Source: Plantibacter flavus
GTDB lineage: Bacteria > Actinomycetota > Actinomycetes > Actinomycetales > Microbacteriaceae
Direction of reading: 5' to 3'
DNA: 64,000 nt
Assembly (NCBI RefSeq): GCF_002024505.1
Contig: NZ_CP019402.1
Location: forward strand, 1,550,001-1,614,000
The translations under genes and the position numbers were made by a program. This document shows, in pieces, positions 4,115 through 50,715 of the stretch (positions are counted from its first letter, which is position 1; each line of letters begins with the position of its first letter). Below the pieces are notes generated by a model. That model ran no database searches. It saw only the letters and a program-made list of their open reading frames with translations, and was not told the DNA's origin.

Positions 4115-4189
4115 CCGCCCTTCCGGTCCCTGAGCGCCCTTCCGGTCCCTGAGCTTGTCGAAGGGCGCACTTCGACAAGCTCAGAGACC
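4115..4189. repeat. REP-like palindromic repeat between convergent genes
   Basis: CGCCCTTCCGGTCCCTGAGC occurs twice in tandem (about 4116-4135 and 4134-4154). The second copy continues into a 20-bp inverted repeat with one mismatch, GGTCCCTGAGCTTGTCGAAG (4144-4163) against 4170-4189, around a 6-nt loop. Related CCTGAGCYTGTCGAAGGG units occur near 11.5 kb and 23.5 kb. The hairpin probably also ends transcription from both sides. From memory, this word is abundant between genes in Microbacteriaceae. Confidence 0.75.
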
Positions 4190-4211
4190 AGGCTCAGCGA
4201 CCGGGCAGGTC

Positions 4212-8908: not shown

Positions 8909-10030
8909 GTGGCACTGCAGCCGCTGCCCGACTACCCCTGGGACCTCATGGTCCCGTATGCGGAGCAGGCCCGTCGGCACCCCGACGGCATCGTCGACCT
9001 CTCGATCGGTTCGCCGGTCGATCCGACTCCCGGCCTCATCCGGGATGCGCTCCGGGCGGCCACGGACGCACACGCCTACCCGACCACGGTCGGCACGCCC
9101 GAACTCCGGCAGGCGATCGTCGACTGGTTCGCGCGCCGTCGTGGCGTCGACGGGCTCACCCTCGACGCCGTCCTCCCGACGATCGGCTCGAAGGAACTCG
9201 TCGCGCTGCTCGCCTTCCTCCTCGGCCTGGGCGCCGGCGACACCGTGGTCCACCCCGTGGCCGCCTACCCGAGCTACGCGGTCGGCGCGGCGATCGCCGG
9301 AGCCGAGGCGTTCGCGTCCGACGACCCCGCCGAATGGCCGGAGAGCACCCGGCTGGTCTGGCTGAATTCCCCCGGCAACCCCGACGGTCGTGTCCTGTCG
9401 GTCGACGAGCTGCGGACAGCCCGAGCCAGAGCCCGCGAACTGGGCGCCGTCCTCGTGGGCGACGAATGCTACGCGGAACTCGGCTGGGAGAGGGAGTGGT
9501 CCGACACGCCGACCCCGTCCGTGCTCGATCCGCGCGTGACCGACGGCGACACCGAGGGTGTCCTCGCGATCTACTCCCTGAGCAAGCAGTCCAACCTCGC
9601 CGGCTACCGTGCCGCGTTCCTCGCGGGCGACGAGCGCCTGGTGCGTCGGCTGGTCACCGTGCGGCAGCACGCGGGTCTCATGCTGCCGGCCCCGCTGCAG
9701 GCCGCCATGGTCGCGGCACTCGGCGACGACGCCCACGTCGCGGAGCAGAAGGCTCGGTACCGCGCCCGACGTGAGGTGCTGCTCCCGGCCGTCCGCGAGG
9801 CCGGGTTCCGGGTCGACCGCAGCGAGGCGGGACTGTACCTGTGGATCACCGAGGGCCAGGACGCCTGGGTGAGTATCGACCGGCTGGCGTCGATCGGTGT
9901 CCTCGCCGGCCCGGGGGTGTTCTACGGCGAGGCCGGGCCGCAGCACGTGCGGCTCTCCCTGACCGCCACCGACGAGCGCATCGCGGCCGCCGCGGCCAGA
10001 CTTCGGGGCCTCCGCCCGATTTCGGGGTGA
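8909..10030 (+). CDS. dapC: Succinyldiaminopimelate transaminase DapC
   Basis: DapC converts N-succinyl-2-amino-6-ketopimelate to N-succinyl-LL-DAP using glutamate, in the lysine/DAP branch that feeds peptidoglycan. The 373-residue class I PLP aminotransferase shows LSIGSPVDPTP at the N-terminus, the NSPGNPDGRVL substrate loop, DECYAELGW, and the PLP lysine in YSLSKQSNLAGYR. GTG 8909 begins 4 nt after fdxA. dapD and dapE, the enzymes on either side of this step, lie 1.5-3.7 kb downstream, which supports this role over a generic aminotransferase. A second class I aminotransferase is encoded at 49.5 kb. Confidence 0.9.
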   Translation: MALQPLPDYPWDLMVPYAEQARRHPDGIVDLSIGSPVDPTPGLIRDALRAATDAHAYPTTVGTPELRQAIVDWFARRRGVDGLTLDAVLPTIGSKELVALLAFLLGLGAGDTVVHPVAAYPSYAVGAAIAGAEAFASDDPAEWPESTRLVWLNSPGNPDGRVLSVDELRTARARARELGAVLVGDECYAELGWEREWSDTPTPSVLDPRVTDGDTEGVLAIYSLSKQSNLAGYRAAFLAGDERLVRRLVTVRQHAGLMLPAPLQAAMVAALGDDAHVAEQKARYRARREVLLPAVREAGFRVDRSEAGLYLWITEGQDAWVSIDRLASIGVLAGPGVFYGEAGPQHVRLSLTATDERIAAAAARLRGLRPISG

Positions 10031-11476: not shown

Positions 11477-11521
11477 GGTTCCTGAGCCTGTCGAAGGGTG
11501 GTTCCTGAACCTGTCGAAGGG
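11477..11521. repeat. Tandem REP-like repeat after gltA
   Basis: Two 22-bp units in direct orientation, GGTTCCTGARCCTGTCGAAGGG at 11477-11498 and 11500-11521, differ at one base and are separated by T. They are relatives of the 4.1 kb element and again sit between convergent genes, just before a terminator. Confidence 0.75.
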
Positions 11522-11574: not shown

Positions 11575-12552
11575 TCAGGCGTGCAGTGCCGCGTTCAGCT
11601 CGACGCCCGAGCCCGAGCGGGGGAGCACCTCGACGGCACCGGTGAGCGAGTTCCGACGGAACAGGAGGTTGGGGACACCCGACAGCTCGACCGCCTTGAC
11701 CGTGCGCGGCGCGCCCTCGGCCGTGGCCGCAGCACCCGCGAGGACGACCTTGGTGCCCGCGGTCACGTAGAGACCGGCCTCGACCACGGAGTCGTCGCCG
11801 ATCGAGATGCCGATGCCGGAGTTGGCGCCGAGGAGGGCGCGCTGACCGATCGCCACCCGCTGCGTACCACCGCCGGAGAGCGTCCCCATGATCGACGCAC
11901 CACCGCCGATGTCGCTGCCGTCGCCGACGACGACGCCCTGCGAGATGCGGCCTTCGACCATCGACGCGCCGAGGGTCCCGGCGTTGAAGTTGACGAAGCC
12001 CTCGTGCATGACGGTGGTTCCCGGTGCCAGGTGGGCGCCGAGCCGGACGCGTGAGGCGTCGGCGATCCGGACCTTGTCGGGCGTCACGTAGTCGAGGAGT
12101 CTCGGGAACTTGTCGATGCCGGTCGCGTGGATGCCGGCGCGGAGGAGCGACGGTCGGAGACGGTCGAAGTCCGCGGGGTGCACGGGGCCGGCGTTGGTCC
12201 AGACGACGATCGGGAGGTGCGCGAAGACACCGTCGAGCGAGATCGTGTTCGGCTGGACGAGCAGGTGGCTGAGCAGGTGCAGCCGCAGGTAGGCGTCCGG
12301 GGTGCTCTGCGGAGCGGCCTGCAGCTCGATCTCGACGGTGACGATGTCGATGCGGACGGCCCGGCGCTCGTCGTCGGTCGCGAGGGCCTCGAGGTCTGCG
12401 GGGGCGATCCAGCGGTCGCGGCCCTCGGGGATCCGTCCGAGCGAGGGCTCGGGGAACCAGGTGTCGAGCACGGTGCCGTCGGCGGCGATGGTCGCGAGGC
12501 CGGAGCCCCAGGCGTGAGTCGGAACGGGGGTCTCGGCAGGCGCAGCGGTCAT
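11575..12552 (-). CDS. dapD: Tetrahydrodipicolinate N-succinyltransferase DapD
   Basis: DapD transfers succinyl from succinyl-CoA to tetrahydrodipicolinate in DAP/lysine synthesis. The 325-residue protein is the actinobacterial trimeric form: an N-terminal domain, then left-handed beta-helix hexapeptide repeats (for example the stretch [20 protein letters not shown] and the [20 protein letters not shown] region, about residues 190-250). ATG 12552 is preferred because a TACCCT box lies 6 nt upstream and the protein then starts [17 protein letters not shown] longer frame reading back through dapE is unsupported. It is divergent from dapE. Confidence 0.95.
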
Positions 12553-12558
12553 GGCTCC

Positions 12559-12597
12559 AGGGTACCGGCCAACACTCAGGCCGACGGCCAATACACT
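12559..12597. promoter_or_regulatory. Compact divergent leaderless promoters of dapD and dapE
   Basis: A minus-strand TACCCT (12564-12559) lies 6 nt before the dapD ATG, and a plus-strand TACACT (12592-12597) lies 6 nt before the dapE ATG. Only 51 bp separate the two start codons, so the RNA polymerase footprints must overlap. Confidence 0.6.
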
Positions 12598-12603
12598 GGT
12601 GCC

Positions 12604-13700
12604 ATGCCAGCCGAAGTCCCCGTACTCGACCTGTCCGTCTCCTCGGTGGAACTCACCCAGCAGCTGTGCGACATCGCCTCCGTCTCGGGGGATGAGGCCC
12701 GCATCGCCGACGCGATCGAGGCGTCGCTCGAGGGGCTCGAGCACCTGACGATCGTGCGCGACGGCGACACGGTCGTCGCTTCCACCTCGCTCGGACGTGC
12801 CCAGCGGGTCATCATCGCCGGACACATCGACACCGTCCCGATCAACGGCAACGTCCCGACCCGGTTCGAGGAGCGCGACGGCGAGGCGGTGCTCTGGGGT
12901 CGGGGACGGTCGACATGAAGGGCGGCGTCGCGGTCCAGCTGAAGCTCGCGGCTGAGCTCACCGATCCCGTCGTCGACATCACCTGGATGTGGTACGACAA
13001 CGAGGAGGTCGCATCCGACCTCAACGGCCTCGGTCGTCTCGCGCGGAACCGTCCCGACCTGTTCGTCGGCGACTTCGCGATCCTCGGCGAGCCGAGCAAC
13101 GCCGGCGTCGAGGGCGGCTGCAACGGAACGCTCCGCGTCCACGTGAGTGCCCACGGCAAGCGGTCGCACGCGGCCAGGAGCTGGGTCGGCGTCAACGCCA
13201 TCCACGCGATCTCCCCGGTCCTCGCGACACTCGCCTCGTACACGCCACGGGAGGTCGAGGTCGACGGGCTCGTCTATCGCGAGGGCGTCAACGCGGTCGG
13301 GATCACCGGCGGCGTCGCCGGGAACGTGATCCCCGACCTCGTCACCGTCGAGGTGAACTACCGCTTCGCTCCGAGCCGGACGGGTGCCGAGGCGCTCGCC
13401 CACCTCGAGGAACTCTTCTCCGGCTTCGAGGTCGTGCAGACGGACGTCGCGGAGGGCGCTCGTCCCGGGCTCGACGCGCCGATCGCCCAGGACTTCCTGG
13501 CCGCGGTCGGCGGCACACCGGCCCCGAAGTACGGCTGGACGGACGTCGCACGCTTCTCCGCACTCGGCGTCCCCGCCGTCAACTACGGACCGGGTGACCC
13601 GCTCCTCGCCCATGCCGACGACGAACGCGTCCCGCTCGCGCACATCGAGGACTGCGAGCGCGGGCTCCGTGCCTGGCTGACCGGGCCCGATGGTCGCTGA
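12604..13700 (+). pseudogene. dapE: Succinyl-diaminopimelate desuccinylase DapE, interrupted by a one-base frameshift
   Basis: DapE releases succinate from N-succinyl-LL-DAP, the step after DapC. Frame 1 codes the N-terminal 104 residues with the metal-ligand motif AGHIDTVP, then ends in GRGRST and a stop at 12916. Frame 3 resumes at MKGGVAVQ (12915) and continues to 13700 with DNEEVAS, GEPSN and a C-terminal LLAHADDE. The family motif [10 protein letters not shown] spans the junction. Adding one G to GGGG at 12902-12905 restores [10 protein letters not shown] and a 365-residue protein of normal length. The metal-bridging Asp is lost in both fragments. Because the gene should be needed and both halves are well conserved, a sequencing error is more likely than a true null. 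Confidence 0.9.
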
Positions 13701-26650: not shown

Positions 26651-26778
26651 CTTGAGTGCCTTTCGGTTGCGTAGGGCAAGACTACGGGAGTCGTGGTCCT
26701 CCGACCGGCGCGGGTCGGCTGCTGTCAGCGAACAGCGGAACGCCGGTCGGCCGTCGCGGTGATGTCGGGAGCCTCCGG

Positions 26779-26784
26779 TAACGT
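26779..26784 (+). promoter_or_regulatory. -10 box of leaderless adnA
   Basis: TAACGT lies 7 nt before ATG 26792, arguing against the upstream in-frame ATG at 26693. Confidence 0.45.
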
Positions 26785-26791
26785 GCGGACC

Positions 26792-29700
26792 ATGACCGTT
26801 CCCGACGCCTCCGACGATCCGACGGGTGCGGTCCGTGACGCGGGCCGCGCGCCCGCCGGCGACCCGGCTGTCGGCATGGGTGTCCGGCTCGACGACTCGC
26901 AGGACGCCGTGCTGCGGCTCGCGGACGACCGGTCCGCCGTCGTACTGGGGGCTCCCGGCACGGGCAAGACCACCACGCTCATCGAAGCGGTGGCGGAACG
27001 CGTGCACTCGCGCGGCCTGCGCACCGACGAGGTGCTCGTCATCGCCTCCTCCCGGTCGTCGGCGCAGGTCCTCCGCGACCGCCTCGAGGCACGGGTCGCG
27101 CGCGCCACACCCGGATCCCTGGCGCGCACCGCCATCTCCCTCGCCCTCGAGGTCATCGCGGGCTCCGGGGCGTTCGCCGGTTCAGGACGACCGCGGTTGC
27201 TGACGGGCGGCGAGCAGGACCAGACCATCGCCGAGCGACTCCTCGGCGACGAACAGGACGCGACCGGTCCGCTGTGGCCAGCGGAGCTCGGTCCCGAGGT
27301 CAGGCGCCTGCAGGGGTTCCGCACCGAGCTCCGGAACCTCATGGAACGCAGCGTCGAACACGACGTCGCGCCAGCCGAGCTACGTCGGCTCGGTACCGAG
27401 CACGGGCGTCCGGAGTGGGTCGCGTCCGCGGGCTTCATCGAGGGGTTCCTCGCCGACGACTGGCGCGGACACCTCACGCCCGCGGCGGCCCTCGCCCGCG
27501 CCGTCCGGCTCCTCGACGAACAGGAACCGGGGACGGGCGTGCTCCGCAGCCTGCGGGTGGTCTTCGTGGACGACGCCCAGGAGGCGACCCACGGCGTCCT
27601 GCAGCTGTTCGCCGCGCTCGCCCGACACGGGGTCGCGATCGTCGCGTTCGGCGACCCCGACCTCACGACGGGTGCCTTCCACGGTGCCCGTGCCGACGCC
27701 CTCGGGCGGTTCGCCGAGGTGCTCGGCCGCCCGGTGGACACGCTCGTGCTCGAGCAGGTCCACCGCGGGACACCGGACATCCGGGCGACGGTCCGCGGCG
27801 TCGCCGAGCGCATCGGCACGGCCGGCGCCGGACTCCATCGCACGGCCGCGCCACCGGTCGATGACGCGGAGACGCCCGAGCACTCCGTCGTCACCGTGGC
27901 GGCCGGTTCCCCGGCCGAGCAGATCGCGGTCGTCGCACGCTTCCTCCGCGAGCGCCACGTCCTCGACGGTGTCGCGTGGGCCGACATGGCGGTGGTCGTC
28001 CGCAGCGGCGGGCTGATCCCGGCGATCGAACGGGGTTTGTCCTCCCTCGAGGTGCCCACCCGGGCGAGCACCGGCGGAGCACCGCTGCGCGACCACCCGT
28101 TCGTCAGGTCGGTCCTCCTCGCCATGTCGGTGGCGCTCGGGCGGACGCCGCTCGACGCCGAGGTCGTGACCGAACTCCTCCACAGCGCGCTCGGCGGACT
28201 GGACTCGATCGGGGTCAGGCGACTCCGGGCCGCGCTCCGCCACGCCGATCTCGCTGAGGGCCTCGACCGCAGCGCGGACCGCCTGCTGGAGGAGGCGTTC
28301 GCCGTCCCCGGTGCACTCATCGGACTCGAGACGCCCTCCGCCGCCCGCGCCCGCTCACTCGCCGACAGCCTCGCCGAGGCGAGCGCGCAGGCAGCGGCGG
28401 GCGCGTCCGCCGAGGAACTCGTCTACGGCCTCTGGTCGCGGAGCAGACTCGAGCGCTCCTGGGTCTCGCTGTCGAAGGGCAGCGGTCAGGCCGCCGAGGA
28501 GGCGAACCGCGACCTCGACGCGATCACCCAGCTGGCCGACGCGGCACGGACCTTCGTCGAGGCGGAGCCCGACACCCCGGCCTCCGTCTTCCTCGACCGC
28601 CTGCTCGAACAGACGGTCGGCGACGACTCCCTCGCGCCGACCGGCCTCCGGGAGGCGGTCACGATCGCGACGCCCGCCGCCCTGGTCGGTACCGCGTTCG
28701 ACACGGTCGTCGTCGCCGGCATGCAGGACGGCGTGTGGCCCAACCTGCGGGTCCGCGACTCACTGCTCGGCGCCTCGGAGCTCGTGGAGCTGCTGGAGGG
28801 CACGGCCACGGCGACAGCGGACGCACGACGCGCGGTCCTCCACGACGAGCTCCGACTCTTCGCCCAGGCGACCTCCCGTGCGCACCGGTCGCTCATGGTG
28901 GTCGCGGTCGTCGACGACGACCACCAGGCGAGCCCGTTCCTCACGCTGCTCCCGGAACCCGATCCGCACCGGGCGTCCCTGTCGCCCCTGTCGCTCCGCG
29001 GCCTCGTCGGCACCCTGCGTCGCTCGCTCACTCGCCGGATCCGCCCCGCGGACCCTGCCGAGCGTGCCGCGTCCGCCTCGGCCCTGGCCATCCTCGCGAC
29101 AGCGGGAGTACCCGGCGCCCCGACCGAGGAGTGGTACGGCGTGGCCGCACCGAGCTCGACGGCACCGCTGCACGACCCCGCCGTCGAGGAGCTGCCGGTC
29201 TCCCCGTCCCGCATGGAGGCCTTCGAGGAGTGCCCGCTGCACTGGGCGATCGCCCGACTGGGCGGCGGTGCCTCCGGGTTCGCCTCCGGGCTCGGCACGA
29301 TCGTGCACGCCGCGCTCGAGCACGCGGAGTCCTCCGACGAGGCCGCGCTCTGGGCAGCGGTGGAGGACCGCTGGGACGAACTCCACTTCGAAGCGGACTG
29401 GGAGGGCGCGGCGACGAAACGGCGTGCGGCGGAACTCGTCCACCGGCTGTCGGCGTACCTCCACGACGCGGAGCGGGCGGGCGTGACCTCGATCGGCAAC
29501 GAGAGCCGGTTCAGCCTCCGCATCCCCATCGGTGAGCTGGGCGGCGCGGCCGTGCTCGGCGGCTCGATCGACCGCGTCGAGCTCGTGCCCGACACCGACG
29601 GGACACGGCGCGTCGTGATCGCCGACCTCAAGACCGGCAGCTCGGCGCCGAGACAGGACCGGGAGGTCGCCGACATGGCGCAGCTCGGCGCCTACCAGCT

Positions 29701-29977
29701 CGCGCTGGCGTCCGGCGCGATCGCCGGTACGGAGGGGCTGCTGAGCGGTGGCGCGAAGCTCATCGTCGTGTCGGCAGGCACGAAGCGCAAGGAGTACTAC
29801 GACCCGGCCCAGCCGGCCTTCGACGACGAGGCCCTCGAGCGCTTCCGCGAGCGTGTCCTGTCGGACGCGATCGGCATGGCGGGAGCGGTGTTCGAGGCCC
29901 GTGTCGGGACCCACTGCCATGACCCGTTCGCGTTCGGCGAGTGCGCCATCCACGTCGTCCCGGCGGTGAGCTCATGA
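26792..29977 (+). CDS. adnA: AdnA-like helicase-nuclease subunit (UvrD-like motor plus RecB-type nuclease)
   Basis: AdnA pairs with AdnB to form the actinobacterial counterpart of RecBCD/AddAB, which resects double-strand breaks. The 1061-residue protein has an N-terminal SF1 motor with Walker A GAPGTGKTTTL (about 55) and a degenerate Walker B VFVDDAQEAT, where UvrD proteins have DEYQ or DEAQ. The C-terminal PD-(D/E)XK nuclease domain (about 800-1061) includes PSRMEAFEECPLHW, an upstream TIVHAALEHAE motif and the catalytic VIADLKTGSS. The pattern of weak motor and intact nuclease matches AdnA. It overlaps adnB by ATGA. Confidence 0.85.
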   Translation: MTVPDASDDPTGAVRDAGRAPAGDPAVGMGVRLDDSQDAVLRLADDRSAVVLGAPGTGKTTTLIEAVAERVHSRGLRTDEVLVIASSRSSAQVLRDRLEARVARATPGSLARTAISLALEVIAGSGAFAGSGRPRLLTGGEQDQTIAERLLGDEQDATGPLWPAELGPEVRRLQGFRTELRNLMERSVEHDVAPAELRRLGTEHGRPEWVASAGFIEGFLADDWRGHLTPAAALARAVRLLDEQEPGTGVLRSLRVVFVDDAQEATHGVLQLFAALARHGVAIVAFGDPDLTTGAFHGARADALGRFAEVLGRPVDTLVLEQVHRGTPDIRATVRGVAERIGTAGAGLHRTAAPPVDDAETPEHSVVTVAAGSPAEQIAVVARFLRERHVLDGVAWADMAVVVRSGGLIPAIERGLSSLEVPTRASTGGAPLRDHPFVRSVLLAMSVALGRTPLDAEVVTELLHSALGGLDSIGVRRLRAALRHADLAEGLDRSADRLLEEAFAVPGALIGLETPSAARARSLADSLAEASAQAAAGASAEELVYGLWSRSRLERSWVSLSKGSGQAAEEANRDLDAITQLADAARTFVEAEPDTPASVFLDRLLEQTVGDDSLAPTGLREAVTIATPAALVGTAFDTVVVAGMQDGVWPNLRVRDSLLGASELVELLEGTATATADARRAVLHDELRLFAQATSRAHRSLMVVAVVDDDHQASPFLTLLPEPDPHRASLSPLSLRGLVGTLRRSLTRRIRPADPAERAASASALAILATAGVPGAPTEEWYGVAAPSSTAPLHDPAVEELPVSPSRMEAFEECPLHWAIARLGGGASGFASGLGTIVHAALEHAESSDEAALWAAVEDRWDELHFEADWEGAATKRRAAELVHRLSAYLHDAERAGVTSIGNESRFSLRIPIGELGGAAVLGGSIDRVELVPDTDGTRRVVIADLKTGSSAPRQDREVADMAQLGAYQLALASGAIAGTEGLLSGGAKLIVVSAGTKRKEYYDPAQPAFDDEALERFRERVLSDAIGMAGAVFEARVGTHCHDPFAFGECAIHVVPAVSS

Positions 29978-32900
29978 GCACGGAGGAGACTTACTCGGCC
30001 GAGATGCTTGCCGGCCTGCTCGGCCTTCCGCAACCGACGACGCAGCAGGTCCATGTCATCGAGGCACCCATGGCCCCGGTCCTCGTCGTCGCCGGTGCCG
30101 GCAGCGGGAAGACCGAGACCATGGCCTCACGCGTCGTGTGGCTGCTCGCCAACCGGCACGTGAGCGTCGACGGGATCCTGGGGCTCACCTTCACCAGGAA
30201 GGCCGCGGGTGAGCTGGCGGCACGGATCGGCAAGCGGATCGCCGCCCTGCAGGACATCGGGATCCTGGATCCCGCGGCAGACGCGCTCTTCGACCGTCCC
30301 GAGGTGTCCACCTACAACGCCTATGCGAACGCCCTGTTCCGCGACAACGCCCTCCTGGTGGGCCGTGAGCCCGAGTCGGTCCTGCTGTCCGAGGCGTCCG
30401 CCTGGCGACTCGCGCGACGCGTCGTGGTCCGGCACGGAGACGAACGGCTCGCCGCCCTCGGCAAGTCCGTCGACCAGGTCGCCGAGCTCGTCCTCTCGCT
30501 GAGCCATGAGCTCGCCGAGATCGACGGCACCACCGAGGAGCTGCTCGGCTTCGTGGAACGGTTCGTCGGCATCGGCGAGCTCCCCGACGGCGGTCGCGGG
30601 GCGTACGCGCAGATCGACCAGGCCGTCGAGGTCGTGGGTGCCCTGCCGGTCCTGCTCGACCTCGCGCACCGGTACGCCGACGAGAAGCGCCGGCAGGGAC
30701 TCGTCGAGTTCTCCGACCAGGTCGCCCTCGCGCTCGCCGCCTGCGAACGTTCGCCGAAGGTCGCCGCCGTCGCGCGCGATCGCGCGGGCGTCGTCCTGCT
30801 CGACGAGTACCAGGACACCTCGGTCGTGCAGACCAGACTGCTGTCGACCCTGTTCGCCGACCACCCCGTCATGGCGGTCGGCGACCCGCACCAGTCCATC
30901 TACGGCTGGCGCGGCGCGAGCGCGGCGAACCTCGCGCGGTTCTCCCGCGACTTCAGTCGCGAGGTCGCCGCCACCCAGTTCAACCTGTCCACGAGTTGGC
31001 GGAACGACCATACGGTTCTCGAAGCCGCGAACGTCCTCGTCCGCCCGTTGCAGCAGCAGGCGCAGACGGCGGGGAAGCTGCGTGTCCTCGACCTCGAGCC
31101 GAAGCCCGGCGCCGGGGCGGGCTCCCTCGCCGTCGAGTTCCCCGAGACCGGTGCCGAGGAGATCCGGATGGTCGCCGAGTGGTGCGCCGACCGGTTGCTC
31201 GCCGAACGCGGGGGAGATCCGGCCGGTTCGGCAGCGATCCTGTTCCGGGCGCGTCGACCGATGCAGGAGTTCGCCGACGGCCTCGCCGCCCTCGGCGTCC
31301 CGCACCACATCCTCGGCCTCGGCGGTCTGCTCTCCTCGCCGGAGATCGTCGACGTGACGGCGGCACTGCGCGTCATCCACGATCCCGGTGCCGGGTCCTC
31401 GCTCATCAGGCTGTTGAGCGGACCACGCTGGCGGATCGGCGTCCACGACCTCGGTCACCTCGTGGAGGTGGCCCGGTACCTGCAGGCCATCGACTGGAAG
31501 ACGAAGCGGTACGACGCCGAACTGGCCGCCCGGCTCCGCGAGTCGGTCGCCGACGACGACGGGCGGTCGATCATCGACGCGCTCGACTTCATCGCCGCCG
31601 ACCGCGTGCCGGCCGGCCTCGCCGCCGGGTTCACCGACGAGGCGCGTTCGCGTCTCCGGGAGGCCGGTCTGGTGTTCGCCTCCCTGCGGCGTCGTGCGGG
31701 CAGCGGCCTCCCCGATCTCGTCAGAGCGGTCGAGCGCGAGTTGCGACTCGACATCGAGGTCGTCGCGAACGAGTCGACCGGATCCGCGGCGCGCGCTCCG
31801 GCCAGACTGCAGGCGTTCCACGACGAGGTCATCTCGTTCATCCAGGCGGAGGAGCAGGTGACGCTCGGCAGCCTGCTGGCCTGGATCGACCGCTCGCTCG
31901 CCCGAGACGACCTCGGACCGGCGAGCGACGCACCCGACCAGGGTGCCGTCCAGCTGCTCACCATCCACGGTTCGAAGGGCCTCGAATGGGACCATGTCGC
32001 GATCCCGCGGCTCGTGGTCGACGAACTGCCCGCCAAACCGAAGGACGGCAAAGGCTGGGTGCGTCTCGGGACGCTGCCGTACGACTTCCGAGGCGACGCG
32101 GCGGAGCTGCCGGAATTCGCCTGGCGGACGGCCGAGACGCGGAAGGAGGTCGTCGACGCTCAGCTCGCCTTCTCGGAGGCGCTCGGCGAACGCGCGCTCG
32201 ACGAGGAACGCCGGCTCGCGTATGTGGCGGTGACCCGCGCCAAGCACGACCTCCTGCTCACCGGCTCGTTCTGGTCGGGCGATCGGAAGCGGCCCCGTGC
32301 CGCGAGCACCTATCTTCTGGAGCTGGCGTCGGCGGGGGTCATCGCACCGCTCCCCGCCGCATCCGCCTTCGAGGAGAACCCGGTCGACTCCGGTGCCGCG
32401 GTCCTCGACTGGCCACTCGATCCGCTCGGAGCGCGTCGGAGCGTCGTCGAACGGGCGGCGGCCGAGGTCGAGCAGCGGCGCGGGCGACCTGAGTCCGAGC
32501 TGCTGGCGACCCTCGGCCCCCTCGAGAACGAGCTGACGCTGCTCCTCGAGGAACGACGCCGTGCCGCGACGACGACCGCGCGCGGTGAACTCCCGGTGCG
32601 CATCCCCGCGTCCAAGTTCAAGGAGTTCGTCACGGAACCGGACGCCGCACTCGAACGACTGCGTCGCCCCGTCCCGCAACGGCCATACCGGCAGACCCGC
32701 CTCGGAACCCGGTTCCATTCGTGGGTCGAGGCGCACTACGGACGCTTCGGATTGCAGGAGCTGGTCGACGCGCTCCCCGAGGAGCTCGACGTCGAACGCC
32801 CGGGCCGGACGCGTCGGAGGGGATCGGGTTCGAGGAGCTCACCGAACGGTTCCTCGCCTCGGAATGGGCTGACGTCCGGCCGGTCGAGGTCGAGACCGAG

Positions 32901-33248
32901 ATCCACGTGCCGCTCGGTGACACCGGACGAGTGGTGGTCTGCAAGCTCGACGCGGTGTTCGAACGCGGGGACCGGTTCGAGATCGTCGACTGGAAGACCG
33001 GCGCGGTACCCACGACGCCTGAGGACGTACGGAACGCCTCGTTCCAGCTCGCGCTCTACCGTCTGGCGTACGCGCACCACCGGGAGGTCGACCCCGAGCG
33101 CGTCGACGCCGTGCTCTACTACGTGAGCCACGACGTGCAGCTCCGGCCGGAACGCCTCTACTCGGAGGAGGAGCTCCTGTCGGAGTGGGAGCGGTCCTTC
33201 GGGGAGGCGGCCGAGTCCCAGAGCTCGAACGACGAGGTGTCGATCTGA
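29974..33248 (+). pseudogene. adnB: AdnB-like helicase-nuclease subunit, interrupted by a one-base frameshift
   Basis: AdnB is the main motor and second nuclease of AdnAB. Frame 1 codes the SF1 motor: Walker A GAGSGKTETM, LTFTRKAAGELAARI, LLDEYQDTSVVQ, GDPHQSIYGWRG, and YVAVTRAKHDL, then the start of the nuclease with GTRFHSWVEAHYG. At about 32797-32805 (CGCCCGGG) the conserved reading moves to frame 3, which carries IGFEELTERFLASEW and the catalytic EIVDWKTGAVP and ends at 33248. Adding one C gives a 1091-residue protein. Without correction, frame 1 ends at 33126 in nonsense sequence and the nuclease active site is lost. A homopolymer sequencing error is the simplest explanation. The 3' end overlaps the convergent gene by 91 nt. 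Confidence 0.88.
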
Positions 33249-49518: not shown

Positions 49519-50715
49519 TCAGCCGCGGAGTCGGGCGAGACCCTCGACCGCCCGCTCCAGGACCTCGACGCGTTTGCAGAACGCGAACCGGACCAGTGAC
49601 GCGTAGTCCGGGTCGTGCCGGTCGAGGCAGAACGCCGACAGCGGCACCGCCACGACGCCGGCGAGCGCGGGCAGCGCCCGGCAGAACGCCGCAGCATCGT
49701 CGAAGCCCAACGGTGCCGCATCGGCCACGATGAAGTAGGTGCCGTCCGGCCGGAAGGTGTCGAAACCGGCGGCTGAGAGGCCCGCGCTCAGGAGGTCCCG
49801 CTTGCCGCGCAGGTCGTCGGCGATGGCCGTGAACGAGGCGTCGGGCAGTCGGAGTCCGGTCGCCATCGCCGGCTGGAACGGTGCGCCGTTGACGTAACTG
49901 AGGTACTGCTTGACCGTCGAGACGGCCGAGACGAGTTCGCGGGGTCCGGTCAACCAGCCGATCTTCCACCCGGTCGTGCTGAAGGTCTTGCCACCGGATG
50001 AGATCGTGAGTGTGCGTTCGGCGGCACCCGGCAAGGTCGCGATCGGAACGTGCCGGACGTCGAAGCTCAGGTGCTCGTAGACCTCGTCGGTCACGATGAT
50101 CGCATCGTGGCGCTCCGCCAACTCGGCGACCAGGTCGAGCGTCGCGCGGCCGAGGACGGTGCCGGTCGGGTTGTGCGGTGTGTTGACCAGAATGACCCTG
50201 GTCCGGTCGGTGACGGCGGCGCGGAGCTCGTCCGGGTCCGCCTGGAAGTCGGGTGCGCGCAGCTTGACCGTCCGATGCCGCCCACCGGCGAGGGCGATGA
50301 GTCCGCCGTACGCGTCGTAGAACGGCTCGAAGGTCACGACTTCGTCGCCGTGCTCGACGAGGGCGAGCAGGGTCGCGGCGAGCGCCTCGGTCGCTCCGGC
50401 GGTGACGAGCACCTCTCCCTGCGGGTCTGGCTGGAGACCGTAGAACCGTCGCTGGTGCTCGCTGATCGCGGTGCGGAGGTCGAGGGTGCCCGGGCCGGGC
50501 GGGTACTGGTTCTCGCCGCGCTCGATGGCCGCGACCGCCTCGGCCAGGACGGCCTCGGGTCCGTCCTCGTCGGGGAACCCCTGGCCGAGGTTGACGGCTC
50601 CGGTCTGCAGCGCGAGCGCGCTCATCTCCGCGAAGATCGTCGACGAGACGTGTCCGTCCTCGTCGACGAGGCCGGCGCCTTCGGCGGTGCGCCGCCAGGG
50701 TCCGTCAACCACCAT
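49519..50715 (-). CDS. Class I/II PLP-dependent aminotransferase
   Basis: The 398-residue protein is a fold-type I aminotransferase. It shows AVNLGQGFPDEDGP (about 40), NQYPPGPGTLDLR, NTPHNPTGTVLG, TDEVYEHLSFD and the PLP lysine in ISSGGKTFSTTGWKIGW. This is the kynurenine/glutamine-transaminase-like group, which includes methionine aminotransferase YbdL and the mycobacterial DapC candidate Rv0858c, so the substrate is open. It might back up the DapC at 8.9 kb. ATG 50715 has GGAAGGA upstream. The gene is monocistronic. Confidence 0.9.
   Translation of the reverse strand: MVVDGPWRRTAEGAGLVDEDGHVSSTIFAEMSALALQTGAVNLGQGFPDEDGPEAVLAEAVAAIERGENQYPPGPGTLDLRTAISEHQRRFYGLQPDPQGEVLVTAGATEALAATLLALVEHGDEVVTFEPFYDAYGGLIALAGGRHRTVKLRAPDFQADPDELRAAVTDRTRVILVNTPHNPTGTVLGRATLDLVAELAERHDAIIVTDEVYEHLSFDVRHVPIATLPGAAERTLTISSGGKTFSTTGWKIGWLTGPRELVSAVSTVKQYLSYVNGAPFQPAMATGLRLPDASFTAIADDLRGKRDLLSAGLSAAGFDTFRPDGTYFIVADAAPLGFDDAAAFCRALPALAGVVAVPLSAFCLDRHDPDYASLVRFAFCKRVEVLERAVEGLARLRG

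Follow-up and report, generated by a model that had tools for sequence, protein, structure and literature searches.

A one-base break in dapE of Plantibacter flavus is probably a residual assembly error

The dapE gene of Plantibacter flavus is interrupted in the genome assembly by a shift of reading frame at the motif TVDMKGG. The frameshift is probably a residual error of a single-contig, and probably long-read, assembly and not a loss of the gene in the cell. The assembly would have dropped one base where a short stretch of dapE is rich in G, the gene itself being intact, and the living strain would produce an ordinary 365-amino-acid succinyl-diaminopimelate desuccinylase that serves the succinylase route to lysine. 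Two points of this account are inferred: the use of long reads for the assembly, and the presence of the base in the cell. The stretch of DNA that was analysed, here called the window, is 64,000 nucleotides long and corresponds to positions 1550001–1614000 of the 4.21-Mb single-contig genome, which has a completeness score of 100%. The comparison set consists of six Plantibacter congeners (G001–G006) and the subject genome, seven genomes together.

Table 1 Features of the window that bear on the break in dapE (window coordinates).
Feature	Position	Strand	Remarks
dapC, succinyl-diaminopimelate transaminase, intact	8909–10030	+	TIGR03539, 568 bits (cut-off 356)
dapD, tetrahydrodipicolinate N-succinyltransferase, intact	11575–12552	-	TIGR03535, 494 bits (cut-off 441)
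dapE, N-terminal part	12604–12918	+	104 codons, frame 1; TIGR01900 profile positions 4–89, 98 bits
GGGG at the frame break	12902–12905	+	dapE is one base longer in six congeners
dapE, C-terminal part	12915–13700	+	Frame 3, 261 amino acids, opens with MKGG; TIGR01900 profile positions 92–351, 376 bits
Helicase-nuclease gene, UvrD-like	29941–33126	+	One-base deletion near 32801 (genome 1582801), specific to the subject genome

Results and discussion

The dapE frame in the assembly and in congeners

The profile of Gram-positive and actinobacterial DapE (TIGR01900, dapE-gram_pos; profile length 351, cut-off 304 bits) is matched successively by the two parts of the gene, which are thus recognizable as members of that family. 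The match comes in two pieces, and no single frame provides a full-length match above the equivalog cut-off; the C-terminal part alone exceeds it (376 versus 304 bits), and the N-terminal part scores 98 bits. The N-terminal part starts with the ATG at 12604 and stops with the TGA at 12916–12918, and its last three codons (RST) lie outside the ancestral dapE frame. Among the named genomes that were scanned, the C-terminal part is matched best by Plantibacter sp. VKM Ac-1784, Plantibacter sp. ME-Dv--P-122b, and P. flavus VKM Ac-2504, with 100% identity in the best segment, which places the organism in Plantibacter (Microbacteriaceae). The conserved aspartate of the TVDMK motif, which we take to be the bridging metal ligand of DapE, is missing from both parts as assembled. 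In the congener protein it is residue 104, and the motif is aligned with TVDMK in the DapE of Corynebacterium glutamicum (3tx8). The alignment of 3tx8 with the intact G004 protein spans residues 4–359 of 365.

In contrast to the subject assembly, all six congeners have dapE as a single open frame of 365 codons, which TIGR01900 matches in one piece above its cut-off and in which the TVDMK motif is kept. The open reading frames, the two profile halves, and the frames of the congeners together confirm the split that was described in the initial annotation, with an N-terminal half in frame 1 and a C-terminal half in frame 3. Its size for the restored enzyme, 365 residues, is right, and so is its statement that the motif aspartate is lost from both translations; the comparison with closely related genomes that it proposed is the one given here. 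Its proposal that one extra G would restore the frame holds in that one base is missing relative to the congeners, but not in the identity of that base. The five congeners in which the letters were read (G001 and G003–G006) have an A between a G and the following GG at the break column. In G002, where the assignment is based on match length and frame, the dapE match exceeds the query stretch by one base and the frame is open. Because the congeners show an A and no longer run of G, comparison with them does not make the break in dapE a simple shortening of a homopolymer. It is possible that a G run was shortened following an A-to-G change.

Selection on dapE and the age of the break

Substitutions in dapE that are unique to the subject genome were counted among five close genomes over both parts of the gene, with the codons around the break excluded. 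Nine of them are silent and one is non-silent (isoleucine to valine), although 6.7 out of ten would be expected to be non-silent if there were no selection (P about 3e-4); a very recent loss of dapE would likewise give a ratio of 9:1. The relaxed selection on the subject lineage that characterizes a true pseudogene is therefore not seen. At the level of sequence comparison, the ratio establishes that dapE has been under purifying selection over most of the history of the lineage. Since the gene has long been under selection, the break, if it is real at all, must be very young.

The lysine pathway and a search for a bypass

Both dapC and dapD are intact and lie within 4 kb of dapE, which is the context of the succinylase route. 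The dapD gene is divergent from dapE; its start was chosen by eye, and its profile is matched on 11578–12567. The genes lysA, dapF, dapA, and dapB are above their cut-offs and without internal stops in all seven Plantibacter genomes. Therefore, none of the six other lysine pathway genes that were checked is decayed.

The initial annotation offered two readings of the split gene, a wrong base call or the use of another route by the strain, and named ddh and dapL as genes that would provide such a route. The second reading is unsupported. The ddh profile (TIGR01921) has no match in any of the seven genomes, the subject genome included, and the single dapL model that was used (TIGR03540) has no match above its cut-off in any of them, so that no alternative diaminopimelate enzyme was found in the subject genome with these two models. 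Aminotransferase matches to TIGR03540 occur far under the cut-off in all seven genomes; two such weak matches are inside the window, one at 8909–10030, which is dapC according to NCBIfam, and the other at about 49534–50598. The dapE gene is single in the subject genome. Rescue by a paralogue of the M20 family was considered and rejected: the best DapE-like paralogue reaches 95 bits (cut-off 304), and a similar match is present in every congener. The subject genome contains nine M20 matches, one of which is the C-terminal part of dapE, compared with 8–10 in the six congeners, and no extra M20 paralogue specific to it was seen among these genomes.

Other frame breaks in the assembly

A pairwise scan compared 984 kb of the subject genome with congener G004, 891 kb of which could be aligned. 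The script reported 11 broken frames in the subject genome (ten one-base deletions and one insertion) and four in G004, which comprise a one-base insertion, a two-base difference, a complex difference, and a 19-base difference; there is no one-base deletion of G004's own among them. The insertion at genome position 1549589 is common to congener G006 and was dropped, and the 10 broken frames that are left in the subject genome all have one-base deletions. The candidates 1533390 and 2281150 failed a stricter filter and were left uncounted. Four of the 10 breaks (dapE, 1582801, 1624266, and 1475814) are located where three congeners are comparable; all four are specific to the subject genome, and a recheck showed that each of the three congeners carries an additional base at each site. 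The break in infB is supported by six congeners, and the remaining five are supported by G004 alone. Among clean one-base indels with identical 10-base flanks, the subject genome is the shorter in 11 of 15.

An alignment with three congeners (G004, G001, and G006) that spans 220 kb was used to polarise indels. The subject genome has 27 indels of its own, compared with 7 in G004, 10 in G006, and 8 in G001; of those with a net change of one base, it has 13, compared with 1, 6, and 2, respectively. Coding frameshift candidates specific to one genome number five in the subject genome, none in G004, none in G001, and one in G006. Three of the five were judged clean when the translations were read: dapE, the helicase-nuclease gene (window position 32801), and, at genome position 1624266, a chorismate-binding/glutamine-amidotransferase gene. 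The candidates 1541110 and 1687894 fall within poorly aligned clusters and were not counted as clean. The break at 1475814 is not among these five candidates.

The subject genome also has 4811 unique substitutions, compared with 2120 in G004 and 2224 and 2469 in the other two congeners. Its branch is about 2.3 times that of G004, and this greater length explains part of the indel excess. Scaled by branch length, the four breaks of G004 lead to an expectation of about nine, compared with the 10 kept and the 11 found, so that there is no excess in the bare count; this and the completeness score of 100% count against assembly error. As to the type of the lesions, the probability that 10 out of 10 one-base deletions fall in the subject genome is about 0.03, and that for three out of three in the polarised set is about 0.07. 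The uniform type is no more than suggestive of assembly error, as judged from these alignments. In one nanopore assembly that has been studied, deletion errors follow homopolymers of 2–8 bases, most often of 4–5 (PMC12007338). The breaks described here resemble the gene-fragmenting indels of that account in that they are one-base deletions in conserved and otherwise open frames, and in that the deletions of the subject genome are mostly in or beside G/C runs.

The one-base deletion near 32801 throws the nuclease domain of the helicase-nuclease gene out of frame: the PDDEXK_1 domain is C-terminal in the G004 protein and was not found in the subject protein as assembled. The gene is preceded by another long open frame (26693–29977), and the two may be an AdnAB-like pair. 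Outside the window, one-base breaks relative to G004 also affect the frames at genome positions 1624266, 2621631, 2534074, 1811829, 1475814, 2755303, and 2836330; these are an anthranilate-synthase-like gene, genes of a sensor kinase, a FUSC-family membrane protein, and a TPR protein, and three that matched no named family under the thresholds applied. Indels relative to congeners at about 4115–4210, 11479–11520, and 23514 of the window are in short repeats with forms of CCTGAGCCTGTCGAAGGG.

The infB gene, which encodes the initiation factor IF-2, is broken by a one-base deletion in its N-terminal region at genome position about 2588022. Its open frame has 833 amino acids, compared with 941–944 in all six congeners, and the gene is single-copy, with one match above the cut-off per genome. 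IF-2 is essential in bacteria; therefore, a real frameshift in infB is unlikely. However, the frame changes near codon 171 and the conserved core begins at residue 345, and because the break is upstream of the core, an internal start could still yield a short IF-2. With this caveat, infB provides a lesion like that of dapE in an essential gene, as would be expected of an erroneous assembly. Together with the selection on dapE and the prevalence of one-base deletions, it makes the base-call error the better supported of the two readings in the initial annotation, which omitted a third, a real and recent loss that could be survivable.

Alternative explanations

The loss of dapE may be real and very recent, in a lysine auxotroph that is fed by the plant or the medium and is viable because its wall is without diaminopimelate; this is the main alternative, though less probable. 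The wall of Plantibacter probably contains 2,4-diaminobutyrate. If the wall is of this type, DapE serves lysine synthesis alone and the wall does not depend on it, so that losing dapE in reality would lead to lysine auxotrophy, not death. Walls with 2,4-diaminobutyrate are reported for the Microbacteriaceae genera Subtercola (PMC5945732), Agreia, where it occurs together with D-ornithine (PMC5945732), and Lacisediminihabitans (PMC7033078); Frondihabitans is listed with D-ornithine (PMC5945732). The initial claim that DapE should be needed for diaminopimelate and lysine therefore stands for lysine and is to be softened for the wall. Plant-associated strains may draw lysine from their surroundings, and the total number of gene breaks near the branch-scaled expectation is also consistent with a real loss. 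By contrast, the six other lysine genes are intact, a like lesion is present in infB, and the lack of relaxed selection on dapE would require the loss to be very young.

Explanations in which the split gene remains functional are far less probable. It is very unlikely that both parts are produced, the second by stop-start coupling, and form a two-chain DapE. The ATG of the C-terminal part (12915–12917) overlaps the TGA of the N-terminal part in the sequence ATGA, and in the C-terminal part the M20 dimerisation domain and a large share of the M20 catalytic domain are matched. However, the overlap is produced automatically by the conserved D-M-K codons (GAC ATG AAG), aspartate 104 is in neither part, and dapE is split in none of the six congeners. 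A similarly slight probability is given to a real break in which ATGA coupling would yield a two-chain M20 enzyme that lacks the motif aspartate and is weakened or changed in activity, tolerated owing to a wall free of diaminopimelate. Restoration of the frame by programmed ribosomal frameshifting or transcript slippage is the least probable: there is a GGGG run at the break, but it consists of four G, no canonical slippery heptamer was seen on inspection, and all six congeners are in frame without such a mechanism.

Implications for Plantibacter

Sequence alone is no safe basis for describing the strain as auxotrophic for lysine or its pathway as rerouted, because the assembly has other breaks of the same type in conserved genes, infB included. 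If the break is real, it would represent a recent mutation to lysine dependence in a bacterium that is associated with plants and probably has no need of diaminopimelate in its wall.
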